This document shows positions 30,692 to 33,538 of a stretch of 45,918 bases of DNA, one piece after another (position 1 is the stretch's first letter; each line of letters starts with the position of its first letter). The notes under the pieces were generated by a model. The model did no database searches. It was not told where the DNA came from and was given only the letters and a program-made list of their open reading frames with translations. The position numbers were made by a program, and so were the translations under genes. Source of the stretch: Fictibacillus nanhaiensis (lineage in GTDB: Bacteria; Bacillota; Bacilli; Bacillales; Fictibacillaceae). The stretch is from positions 1 through 45,918 of the forward strand of contig JAEACG010000012.1 of NCBI GenBank assembly GCA_016401345.1, in the 5' to 3' direction.

Positions 30692-30919
30692 GTGAAATAT
30701 AGAGCAAGGAGTAAACTAGGAGATTATCTAGAGGAGAGAGGAATAACAAAGACTTGGTTAGCTGATAAAATTAATGCAGATCGAAGCCAAGTATCAAAAT
30801 GGTGCACGAACGATGTGAACGGTGTAGCATTAGCAACTCCTCAAGTTCCGTACTTAATCATGGTCCTAGAAGTGTTAGATTGCAAACTAACAGACATTTA
30901 TGAAATCGTAGATCAATAA
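30692..30919 (+). CDS. XRE-family HTH regulator
   Basis: A 75-aa Cro/CI-type DNA-binding protein: LGDYLEERGITKTWLADKIN, DRSQVSKWCTND, then a closing helix (VPYLIMVLEVLDCKLTDIYEI). It is a single HTH domain with no dimer arm. GTG start, with TTGGAGGA upstream. A TATAAT box lies at 30663-30668, but no good -35 sits at the right distance. It is divergent from rep and upstream of the receptor gene, so it may regulate either. A perfect terminator follows it. Confidence 0.85.
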   Translation: MKYRARSKLGDYLEERGITKTWLADKINADRSQVSKWCTNDVNGVALATPQVPYLIMVLEVLDCKLTDIYEIVDQ

Positions 30920-30971: not shown

Positions 30972-31187
30972 AACTTGGGAAAATAGAGATAAAGAACCGT
31001 GAATAAACACCTATATTTATAGTCAATTTTCCCAAGTTGTTACATGTAGAAACAGTTTATAATAAATTTGTAAACAAAAGTAAGTGATATGAGATACAAT
31101 TATTTACATAATGTAACAAAAATTGTAGGAAAGTACCTTGTTAAACAATGTCAGGTGTTGTAAAATAACAACGAATATATGTTCGTT
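30972..31187. promoter_or_regulatory. Upstream region of the AimR-like gene with inverted repeats
   Basis: AACTTGGGAAAAT (30972-30984) recurs inverted at 31026-31038 (13 of 13 bases, 41-base gap). A TATAAT box lies at 31058-31063. Further palindromes are TTGTTAAACAA (about 31138-31148) and AACGAA/TTCGTT (31170-31187). These are candidate operators for the receptor itself or the XRE protein. A - strand ORF across the area is not credible. Confidence 0.55.
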
Positions 31188-31253: not shown

Positions 31254-32477
31254 ATGGTTCGTGATATTTTCAAGAAAGCAATGGAGAAACATGGTTATAA
31301 TAACTCCACTTTTGCAACGGCATTAGGAGTGGATCGTTCAACAATCTCGCGATTTTATAAACATGGTCAAGAATTAGCATTTAACAAAGTTGTTCTAGGA
31401 GGAAAGTTATTGTTAACTCCTAGGGAAAGACATACAGTCATTGAAGAATATGCTTCAAAAATTGCTTTGACAGAAAATATCCTCATGGCCTTAGAATATA
31501 CTTCTGTAAATAATAGAACTTCTACTCATTTAAAACTATTAGAAGATCGCAAGGTTATAAATGGTGCAGATGACGAGTATGTTGTGGTGTACATGGACAA
31601 CTATGATAGACAAACAGGAAAAATTTCTGACGAGGAAATGTTAAAGAAAGTACGAACAAGGAAGCTAGAGAATGACGCAATGAATGTTTTCCAGAGAATC
31701 ATTGGAATATATACCTTATATAAGAAGAACCGGTACATGGAAGTTATAGAACATGCCAATGAAACAGAAATAGAATTAAATAAACTGACTTGTAATTATT
31801 CTAAGAGTTCATTTCTTACAAGATTAAGCGAGCCTTTAGCTTACACTAATTTAAAAGTATATGCAGATTTCCAAGCATCAAGGATACATAGCAACAACAT
31901 CATTAACGATCCTTATGTAAATGAGCTACGTGCAGCGAGTGCACATTACAACTTGGGCTTGTCTTATCTGTTTGAAGATTATAAGAAATGTATTCATGAA
32001 TTTACTAAGTCAACAGAAATATATGACATTTACGACAATCCTCAATATTCAAAAAATGTAAAAAATTATGGTATTTCTTTAGCGAATCTATTGTATAATA
32101 AATTTAATGATTTTGAGTCTTCAGACCCGGTATTAAATGCATATTATCACGCGAAAATGGGACAAAGAGTTAGAGCTTTAGAACTATTAAATAACAACAG
32201 CGAAACTCTTTGCACAAATGCAATGACACAGTTTGTTGCAGGTGTTGCTACAGGAGACGATAAGCTGATCTGGGAATCCATAAGTAAATTTATAGAAGAA
32301 GGAGACTTATGGATGGCTTTGCTCCCATGCTTTGAGTTGATTAGGAAAGGCGAAGAACCACATAAGGTTTATGTTGCTATTAAGTTGATGGCGCGTAACT
32401 TCCAGGAGGTAGAGAAACTTGAAAAAAACTTTTTTGTTAACGTTAACGATTTTGGCACTAGTTGCATTACCGGTTGA
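31254..32477 (+). CDS. AimR-like peptide-responsive transcription regulator
   Basis: A 407-aa protein, close to AimR of SPbeta/phi3T (about 380 aa). Residues 15-40 are a HTH (STFATALGVDRSTISRFYKHG); the rest is helical with TPR-like pairs (about 225-300: AASAHYNLGLSYLFEDYKKC). The C-terminal KFIEEGDLWMALLPCFELIRKGEE parallels the last repeat of AimR (remembered, not searched). ATG 31254 is six bases behind AAAGGAGG. Its 3' end overlaps a small exported-peptide gene, as in receptor-peptide cassettes. Predicted role: sense the peptide and switch between lysis and lysogeny or plasmid states. PlcR/Rap-like alternatives cannot be excluded. Confidence 0.82.
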   Translation: MVRDIFKKAMEKHGYNNSTFATALGVDRSTISRFYKHGQELAFNKVVLGGKLLLTPRERHTVIEEYASKIALTENILMALEYTSVNNRTSTHLKLLEDRKVINGADDEYVVVYMDNYDRQTGKISDEEMLKKVRTRKLENDAMNVFQRIIGIYTLYKKNRYMEVIEHANETEIELNKLTCNYSKSSFLTRLSEPLAYTNLKVYADFQASRIHSNNIINDPYVNELRAASAHYNLGLSYLFEDYKKCIHEFTKSTEIYDIYDNPQYSKNVKNYGISLANLLYNKFNDFESSDPVLNAYYHAKMGQRVRALELLNNNSETLCTNAMTQFVAGVATGDDKLIWESISKFIEEGDLWMALLPCFELIRKGEEPHKVYVAIKLMARNFQEVEKLEKNFFVNVNDFGTSCITG

Positions 32478-32544
32478 TGCATCAACAACTAAGAGTACTG
32501 TTCAACCTACTATAAAAGCAGGTTGGGACCCTTGTTGCGGGTAA
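32419..32544 (+). CDS. AimP-like secreted communication propeptide
   Basis: A 41-codon ORF missed by usual length limits. TTG start eight bases behind AGGAGGT (32404-32410), which lies inside the receptor gene where it has no other use; the two genes overlap by 59 bases in different frames. KKTFLLTLTILALVALPVDA is a signal peptide with likely cleavage after VDA (residue 21). The rest, STTKSTVQPTIKA then GWDPCCG, is a short propeptide. Size (AimP of phi3T is 43 aa), position and order match AimP. The mature signal is probably the last six or seven residues; the C-C pair is unlike the known arbitrium peptides I recall. Confidence 0.82.
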   Translation: MKKTFLLTLTILALVALPVDASTTKSTVQPTIKAGWDPCCG

Positions 32545-32603: not shown

Positions 32604-32645
32604 AGTGTTGCAAGGTATCCTTTAAAACTAATACCATGCAACACT
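32604..32645. promoter_or_regulatory. Paired operator ahead of the 56-codon ORF
   Basis: AGTGTTGCAAGGTAT (32604-32618) and its inverted copy ATACCATGCAACACT (32631-32645) differ at one base. A GATAAT box (32660-32665) lies 18 bases after ATGCAA in the right arm, so a bound repressor would block this promoter. The same core recurs at the cI-cro region and at 41700. Confidence 0.78.
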
Positions 32646-32713
32646 CTACATTTTTGCGTGATAATATGCATTTAAACAAAAACAACTAAAGTGAAAAAAC
32701 GGGGGTAACATTT

Positions 32714-32884
32714 TTGGATAAGGAAACTGTATTAAATAAGCTGGTAAGGATGAAAGCTGCTGGTGAACCTTTAGATTTGAAGATGGCATTAGATGAAATC
32801 GAAAAAAACGAGAACCTTCAAATATTGGATCAACAAATTAAAAGCCTCTTTGTAACAGCAAAAAAACAAGCCTATGTATCATAG
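32714..32884 (+). CDS. Small protein in the decision region (AimX position)
   Basis: A 56-aa ORF, TTG start seven bases behind GGGGGT. DKETVLNKLVRMKAAGEPLD and ALDEIEKNENLQILDQQIKSL predict two helices; the end KQAYVS is encoded inside a terminator. It lies between the peptide gene and the convergent cI-like gene, where SPbeta-like phages place the AimX region. It may act as a protein, or the transcript may act on the cI-like mRNA end it converges on. Confidence 0.62.
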   Translation: MDKETVLNKLVRMKAAGEPLDLKMALDEIEKNENLQILDQQIKSLFVTAKKQAYVS

Positions 32885-32895
32885 GCTTGTTTTTT
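32861..32895. terminator. Strong bidirectional terminator
   Basis: A perfect 16-bp stem with three-base loop (32861-32876 with 32880-32895), A-run left and T-run right. It contains the last codons of both convergent genes. Confidence 0.92.
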
Positions 32896-33295
32896 AATTT
32901 GTATTCTTATTGTTTTTAAAGAACACTTCCAGAAAGGAATCTAAAAGTTCTATCTGCTTTTCTTTATTCTCTTCACTTAAATACATACCTTCATAGTTAA
33001 GTTTATCAGCATTTTCTATTAGAAACCTTTTTAAATTGGTTTTTTCATCGGATGAATTTGATAACTCATTGTCTGTTAGCCCTTGTAAGTATTCTGTGGA
33101 TGTTTCTAAGATCTCGGCTAATTTCTGCAACTTAGAAAGAGTAGGTGTTCTGTATCCTAGTTCATAATGTGTATATGTCGATCTAGCACAACCCACATGG
33201 GCAAGTATAGTAGATATTTTAAGTCCTCTTTTTTTCCTCAGTTCTACTAATCTTGATCCAACAATTAAAGATTCAACTTTGTTAGCAGTTCCCAT
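32894..33295 (-). CDS. CI-like repressor, XRE family
   Basis: A 133-aa repressor. Residues about 13-68 are a full HTH (GSRLVELRKKRGLKISTILA, CARSTYTHYELGYRTPTLSKL, LAEILETSTEYLQG). The remaining 60 residues are acidic and helical, probably for dimerisation; no LexA-type peptidase domain is present, so release from repression needs an antirepressor (Rha?) or the peptide system. CGGAGGTG precedes the ATG. It is divergent from the Cro-like gene, the classical switch layout. Confidence 0.88.
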   Translation of the reverse strand: MGTANKVESLIVGSRLVELRKKRGLKISTILAHVGCARSTYTHYELGYRTPTLSKLQKLAEILETSTEYLQGLTDNELSNSSDEKTNLKRFLIENADKLNYEGMYLSEENKEKQIELLDSFLEVFFKNNKNTN

Positions 33296-33538
33296 GAAGA
33301 GTTACACCTCCGAAATTTATAATCAACTGTTGCAAGGTAATGGTAAATTAATCACCGATGCAACATTATAAGACCTCGTACCTATTATCCTTAATTTTGT
33401 TACTCATTGCAACACTTATCATAAAAAGAATTTCTCCAAAAACCGCATGAATATTATGAAAAATACTTGTTTTGTATACATCTTGTATATATAATTAAGG
33501 AGAAAATAATGTTTCAATAAATTGTTTAAGGAGGAATC
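33296..33538. promoter_or_regulatory. cI-cro intergenic operator region
   Basis: Three operator cores lie here: CTGTTGCAAGGTAAT (33327-33341), ATCACCGATGCAACATT (33351-33367, inverted) and ATTGCAACACTT (33406-33417, inverted), all sharing GTTGCA with the pair at 32604-32645. They cover the region where the leftward cI promoter must lie. Confidence 0.75.
33467..33495 (+). promoter_or_regulatory. Rightward promoter (cro/early)
   Basis: TTGTTT (33467-33472), exact 17-base spacer, TATAAT (33490-33495). A TGTATACA palindrome lies in the spacer. Confidence 0.8.

Follow-up and report, generated by a model that had tools for sequence, protein, structure and literature searches.

A probable AimR–AimP pair with a paired-cysteine peptide on a phage-plasmid of Fictibacillus nanhaiensis

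The locus and its genetic element

The DNA analysed here (the window, 45,918 nucleotides) is one entire contig of the Fictibacillus nanhaiensis genome, which comprises 4.28 Mb in 26 contigs. It contains a receptor gene, aimR, that overlaps a small peptide gene, aimP, and around these genes lie long-spaced inverted repeats and genes of HTH regulators (Table 1). According to the ORF listing, a longer reading of aimR, of 432 aa, is possible from an upstream ATG at position 31179.

Table 1 Features of the aimR–aimP region and their coordinates in the window
Position	Strand	Feature	Basis
30692..30919	+	Small Cro/CI-type HTH gene upstream of aimR	PF13443, 8.1e-9
30972..31038		Long-spaced inverted repeat AACTTGGGAAAA-N43-TTTTCCCAAGTT upstream of aimR, putative host-type operator	Repeat scans
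31058..31063	+	Candidate -10 TATAAT, 21 nt after TTTTCCCAAG	Sequence
31254..32477	+	aimR, HTH + TPR-like receptor, 407 aa	ATG after AAAGGAGG
32133..32159	+	Inverted-repeat arm 1, in aimR codons	Repeat scan
32211..32213	+	Codon of receptor Cys320, aligned with N329 of SPbeta AimR	Sequence alignment
32404..32409	+	aimP ribosome binding site AGGAGG, 9 nt before TTG	7/7 match to AGGAGGT
32419..32544	+	aimP, encodes a propeptide of 41 aa from TTG; 59 nt shared with aimR in a different frame	Sequence, MKKTFLLTLTILALVALPVDASTTKSTVQPTIKAGWDPCCG
32419..32481	+	Predicted signal peptide of AimP, residues 1–21, cleavage after VDA	By eye and hydropathy filter
32524..32541	+	Predicted mature signal WDPCCG	Length taken from the hexapeptide EIKPGG, a signal in this receptor clade
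32606..32643		Candidate AimR operator TGTTGCA-N24-TGCAACA, 61 nt after aimP (9-bp arms AGTGTTGCA from 32604)	Repeat scan
32649..32675	-	Inverted-repeat arm 2, between N24 repeat and 56-aa ORF	Repeat scan
32714..32884	+	56-aa ORF (TTG) between aimP and repressor, candidate for the aimX position, without family match	ORF list, profile searches
32861..32895	+	Terminator-like hairpin, 16-bp stem	
32894..33295	-	CI/RstR-like HTH repressor	PF01381, 1.3e-10; phrog_8, 2.1e-17
33328..33365		Second TGTTGCA-N24-TGCAACA copy, 32 nt upstream of the CI-like repressor ORF	Repeat scan

Phage genes for terminase, portal, head, tail sheath, tape measure and endolysin/lysis functions were found on the window, and profile searches revealed a ParM-type partition system; the match to a replication initiator is weak (phrog_270, E 5.8e-5). 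The two contig ends overlap exactly over 127 bp, which is read as the assembler k-mer overlap of a circular molecule, and because of this overlap the molecule is very likely a circle of 45,791 bp. On the basis of the phage genes, the partition system and the terminal overlap, the element is, judged from its sequence, a phage-plasmid, as the preliminary description had called it, with circularity deduced from the contig ends. A near search among phages gave no match, and a distant search among plasmids returned, among the matches listed, stretches of ssb or ParM. Nothing useful came from scans of genome contigs, nor from scans of viral contigs with the receptor, its alignment and a related receptor (P0003), and a pattern scan yielded 11 viral contigs in whose ORF lists no AimR was noticed by eye. 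All Rfam matches stayed below gathering scores.

The receptor

The window receptor belongs to the AimR family, as had been proposed from its C-terminal part. It passed the AimR profiles of Pfam (PF22871, 133.6 bits vs 26.7), NCBIfam (NF038310, 180 vs 70) and PHROG, and a Foldseek comparison with the PDB placed AimR chains at ranks 1–16, which identifies the fold as that of AimR. An identity as PlcR, NprR or Rap was considered and rejected, since AimR is nearest by both profile and structure, and the grouping with PlcR that could have undermined the earlier assignment was looked for and not seen. The nearest receptor in the protein database is that of Fictibacillus sp. 7GRE50 (P0002), with 53% identity, whereas identity to SPbeta AimR is about 20%.

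Of 397 genomes of the order, 86 have a PF22871 match, which exceeds the cut-off in 80. A census of 136 AimR loci was assembled (L001–L005, L033 and 130 from among the matches listed), the receptor at each locus being the longest of the ORFs close to its centre. All 136 picks differ, and 135 match the AimR profile built here; the remaining one, L050, was kept in the tree and gave no peptide. The 214-aa ORF piece of L004 was excluded from the tree; at this locus (CP045534) a plasmid AimR region is split across two ORFs and followed by a peptide ORF ending in MADPGSGMG. Four genomes (G166, G240, G283 and G108) carry runs of three neighbouring AimR genes on the same strand, most of them without a peptide gene according to the filter described below. 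A tree of 138 AimRs unites the window receptor, P0002, P0003 and a second AimR of the same genome (L001) in one clade with a support of 0.954, nested in an 18-member clade with SpaA1 (support 0.88).

The peptide gene and a second pair in the same genome

All traits that had first drawn attention to the 41-codon TTG ORF, i.e. the strong ribosome binding site, the signal-like start and the GWDPCCG tail, were recovered, and the overlap, order and sizes of the two genes indeed resemble AimR–AimP pairs: in related loci the overlapping peptide ORF starts 53–68 nt before the aimR end, with TTG in phi18-2 and L001 and ATG in SpaA1. The ORF lies on the same strand as aimR, and from its signal-like start, found by the filter, the propeptide is predicted to be secreted. 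The proposed mature hexapeptide follows the example of EIKPGG, which is given as the signal of the Wbeta/SpaA1-type receptor clade in an excerpt of PMC8878798; it is also possible that the signal is GWDPCCG or longer.

A second pair exists in the same genome (L001). Its receptor, encoded on contig C26, is about 30% identical to the window receptor, and the end of its gene is overlapped by a small ORF, whose start is TTG or an ATG two codons before it and whose product ends in KADPICCGQG. The aligned peptides are 50% identical and have K-A-(x)-D-P-(x)-C-C-G in common, so that the aimP reading frame is kept in L001 and rests on these two systems. Contig C26 is plasmid-like: it encodes a MobL relaxase and a TraG-type coupling protein, only a ParA-like protein was matched when 10 of its proteins were scanned against PHROG, and an overlap of its ends was looked for and not found. 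The mature L001 signal may be DPICCGQG, by analogy, because several precursors in the census repeat a unit that begins with DP. Such precursors, with two to three copies of a DPG..G unit, occur at L118, L124, L126, L134 and L142, the last with DPGDPGIG twice, and the repeated units suggest where the mature peptide begins.

Because the receptor passes the AimR profiles and an overlapping ORF recurs in related loci, aimP stands above chance. That it is nevertheless a fortuitous ORF in the overlap, and AimR an orphan receptor eavesdropping on other systems, is very improbable. Such a reading could draw on the protein database, where a search for AimP homologues gave no match, and on the 72 of 136 census loci for which the filter, which also misses real peptides, gave no candidate. 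It has to contend with a perfect ribosome binding site, a signal-like start, an overlap like that of related pairs and a second peptide with the same KA-x-DP-x-CCG end beside a rather distant receptor. Moreover, a propeptide candidate is given for 100% of phage-plasmid AimR genes in the consulted section of PMC9765709.

What is new in the peptide

The filter required a start within 130 nt, a ribosome binding site matching in at least 5 of 7 positions, a basic start and a hydrophobic stretch, and the loci differ in the amount of upstream DNA; 64 of the 136 loci gave a candidate, all 64 being distinct. Within the last 15 residues, Asp-Pro occurs in 42 of these candidates and adjacent cysteines in two, both from this genome; at L134 the cysteine peptide that was counted is the wrong ORF of that locus. 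In a broader scan of 243 small ORFs near aimR, five had Cys-Cys in the last 10 residues, and the other three of these were not AimP-like by eye. The DPG motif is widespread among peptides of the AimR subfamily according to a structural phylogeny (PMC12700828, consulted in part). Asp-Pro is therefore a common theme of AimR peptides and the novelty lies in the adjacent cysteines, so that the preliminary description was right in setting the tail apart from SAIRGA and GMPRGA for its paired cysteines, and the Asp-Pro that it also named is ordinary. The open-licence PMC literature yielded nothing on an AimP with CCG, and among the titles and abstract starts listed there none describes a paired-cysteine AimP or a host quorum-sensing operator at aimR, which in itself is no proof of novelty.

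The peptide pocket

In SPbeta AimR, N329 contacts the arginine of the peptide (PMC6458997, in the part consulted). A cysteine at this column, Cys320 in the window receptor, occurs in only 3 of the 138 receptors, i.e. those of the window, P0002 and P0003. The L001 receptor has Glu there, and since its partner is a Cys-Cys peptide as well, the pocket cysteine is not tied to such peptides as such. By the same alignment, which at about 20% identity is approximate, D360 is kept, at a distance of 31 residues from the N329 column in both proteins, and E300, N202 and R228 are replaced by Leu, Tyr and Leu; Glu is found at the E300 column in 102 of 138 receptors. The hallmark of the SPbeta group, an RGA end whose arginine is held by N206, N329 and D360, is replaced by a WDPCCG tail and the aligned residues K, C and D, and this hallmark defines the SPbeta group, not AimR as a whole. 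The pocket residues may thus fit a different peptide, and a thiol contact is possible.

For the paired cysteines, a plain side-chain fit is likelier than disulfide or metal chemistry, which is possible too. A more elaborate scheme is that the vicinal-cysteine pheromones of both elements oxidise outside the cell and are reduced after import, that the peptide of the phage-plasmid meets Cys320 so that AimR reads redox state as well as density, and that a common NprR-type operator puts both receptors under the quorum-sensing regulator of the host. We consider this thiol-gated dialect unlikely, even though its odds were raised slightly because the pocket cysteine was found.

Repeats and repressor downstream of aimP

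The SPbeta AimR operator is ATCACT-N25-AGTGAT (PMC6458997, from the excerpt consulted), and the same type of scan as used here recovers it downstream of SPbeta aimP. With spacers of 20–30 nt allowed, TGTTGCA-TGCAACA pairs occur at two sites in the 4.28 Mb genome, both with N24 and both in the arbitrium module. Their positions suggest that AimR, through these candidate sites, may govern both an aimX-type transcript and the repressor. Among the 136 loci there is no excess of N24 or N25 repeats downstream of aimR (7 at N24 and 3 at N25, within background), and the AimR-operator reading therefore rests on the window module.

This absence of a general excess leaves considerable room, somewhat short of even odds, for the alternative that the CI-like repressor has its operators in the N24 repeats, with one repressor box per arm, and that AimR acts elsewhere. 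One of the repeats closely precedes the repressor gene, the arms hold TTGCAA-like and TGCA palindromic cores, and a third half-site is present at 33402–33414. Against it, the exact N24 in both copies, without any other such pairing in the genome, fits a long-spaced dimer such as AimR, and the first copy is located after aimP, as is the SPbeta operator. We keep the candidate AimR operators as the preferred reading.

Among inverted repeats downstream of aimR at the 136 loci, with spacers of 12–40 nt, a 32-nt spacer is the commonest (17), for which related loci may account. The module also contains an inverted copy of a 27-nt piece of aimR, identical in 26 of 27 nt, and at the other loci of the 136, stretches complementary in this way, with no more than one mismatch allowed, do not exceed 16 nt. 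This copy could give an antisense transcript or, because it contains TGATAAT, could be a promoter remnant.

A host-type repeat upstream of aimR

The L001 aimR is preceded by a repeat of the same spacing, differing in one base from that of the window, and by a candidate -10, TAAAAT, that likewise lies 21 nt after TTTTCCCAAG. Promoter-like sites as such are not in excess (11 found vs 13.8 expected). With its 9-bp arms, the repeat occurs in its own genome at the two aimR genes only, and for this reason it was initially favoured as an AimR operator. This reading was dropped since the repeat was found beside a Rap-like TPR gene (RapH_N just under the cut-off) in two genomes without a PF22871 match, and since the version with 7-bp arms occurs in all 34 genomes of the host family that were searched.

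When the arms are shortened to TTGGGAA/TTCCCAA and spacers of N35–64 are allowed, the own genome has eight matches, seven with exactly N47, and the family genomes have 3–10 each (reversed control 0–4). Restricted to N45–47, the counts are 5–8 in each of nine family genomes (reversed control 0–1), and a match is present in 68 of 249 genomes of the order. Placement was counted for 82 listed sites, from 39 of these 68 genomes: 19 sites (13 genomes, four families) are followed within 350 nt by a gene for an NprR-like HTH-TPR protein, the best PDB match of which is NprR (E 1.4e-21), and 63 do not adjoin an NprR-like gene as found at E 1e-40. Elsewhere in the own genome, sites are found before or beside genes for a Rap-like protein, PhoX, a PfpI-like protein and a protein with Ig-like matches; one TTGGGAA-type site precedes a Rap-like gene at L029. 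The motif marks a host regulon of NprR-like, Rap-like, PhoX and PfpI-like genes, seen at L027, L034 and in many Bacillales. Downstream of the NprR-like gene at L034 (G028), a small ORF with a fourfold DDRPE-type repeat was noticed, which is likely a multi-copy pheromone precursor.

Within the AimR census the upstream repeat is found at 3 of 136 loci, the third being a divergent aimR of another family (L102), where the spacer is N46 and the repeat lies 83 nt upstream of the longest ORF. At L033, the sole other AimR of the host family, neither repeat nor peptide was detected, and the SPbeta stretch examined has no host-type repeat before aimR. We know of no described regulator with a TTGGGAA-N45..47-TTCCCAA site. 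RghR was considered as the binder and set aside, the excerpts of the literature giving no binding sequence for comparison.

From these positions we infer that the host may control aimR through the upstream repeat, most likely by means of the NprR-like receptor, because the gene of that receptor carries the same repeat. There is a considerable chance, somewhat below even, that the protein acting at TTGGGAA-N47-TTCCCAA is AimR, or else a host factor distinct from the NprR-like receptor. AimR tolerates longer spacers, tested to 35 bp (PMC6458997, in the excerpt), and a different host factor would suit the small share of sites next to NprR-like genes, the varied genes at the others and the two genomes (G226, G272) in which a site follows the NprR-like gene instead of preceding it. 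For AimR as the binder it is awkward that the repeat is ubiquitous in the family and PF22871 matches occur in only 3 of the 34 genomes, one being the NprR-like gene; a different host factor is at odds with the recurrence, across four families, of sites immediately before NprR-like genes. Control by the NprR-like receptor remains the reading that we prefer.

Proposed mechanism and significance

Arbitrium is a model for viral communication, with a peptide code that is read from a few C-terminal residues, and phages use the AimR–AimP family to choose between killing and dormancy. We regard the window as carrying an AimR–AimP pair of a phage-plasmid, with proposed control by AimR and a host regulator, at a probability of about 0.8. 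The aimP product would leave the cell and be processed to a short peptide with Cys-Cys-Gly at its end, either WDPCCG or GWDPCCG, and after import this peptide would bind AimR, likely alter its hold on DNA and tilt the phage to dormancy. By occupying the two TGTTGCA-N24-TGCAACA sites, AimR would set the expression of an aimX-type transcript and of the repressor, and the amount of AimR would in turn be set by the host regulator. According to the alignment, the receptor pocket that would receive the paired cysteines also has a cysteine, Cys320. Cleavage, import, peptide binding, AimR action at the N24 sites and host control are proposed here from the layout of genes and motifs.

If this is correct, a Cys-Cys code word read by a receptor with a pocket cysteine widens the chemistry of the arbitrium code. 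Two co-resident elements with related Cys-Cys peptides make cross-talk between a phage and a plasmid directly testable. A host quorum-sensing operator at aimR would make the phage's listening depend on a density signal of the host, and it is likely that the host influences the decision of the phage in this way, because both aimR genes follow a motif that also precedes host quorum-sensing genes. AimR–AimP arbitrium is already known; what is new is the paired-cysteine variant of the peptide and the unexpected link to a host quorum-sensing regulon.

Comparison with known arbitrium systems

With SPbeta and phi3T the window shares the AimR fold, the order of receptor and peptide genes, a propeptide that is secreted (predicted here) and a long-spaced inverted repeat after aimP. 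It differs in its distant receptor, in the overlap of aimP with aimR, in a peptide that ends in Cys-Cys-Gly instead of RGA, and in having a second repeat before a CI-like repressor as well as the host-type repeat before aimR. In the Wbeta/SpaA1 type (EIKPGG, TIKPGG), too, the peptide gene overlaps and an XRE-type regulator lies downstream on the opposite strand, and the SpaA1 receptor belongs to the same 18-member clade; its peptide, however, ends in KPGG, without cysteine, and SpaA1 has an ATG start. Also similar is the TPR architecture of NprR and Rap (RRNPPA), with an HTH in NprR, and the host NprR-like gene has the long-spaced repeat of aimR. The phage-plasmid B83, of clade 7, has a propeptide ending in MADPGGSVG (PMC6669507, as far as the excerpt goes). 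According to the same excerpt it resembles the window in its circular plasmid state, the Asp-Pro of the peptide and the location of the arbitrium genes between CI- and Cro-like genes, whereas it has Gly-Gly where the window has Cys-Cys, a comparison that covers peptide and layout.
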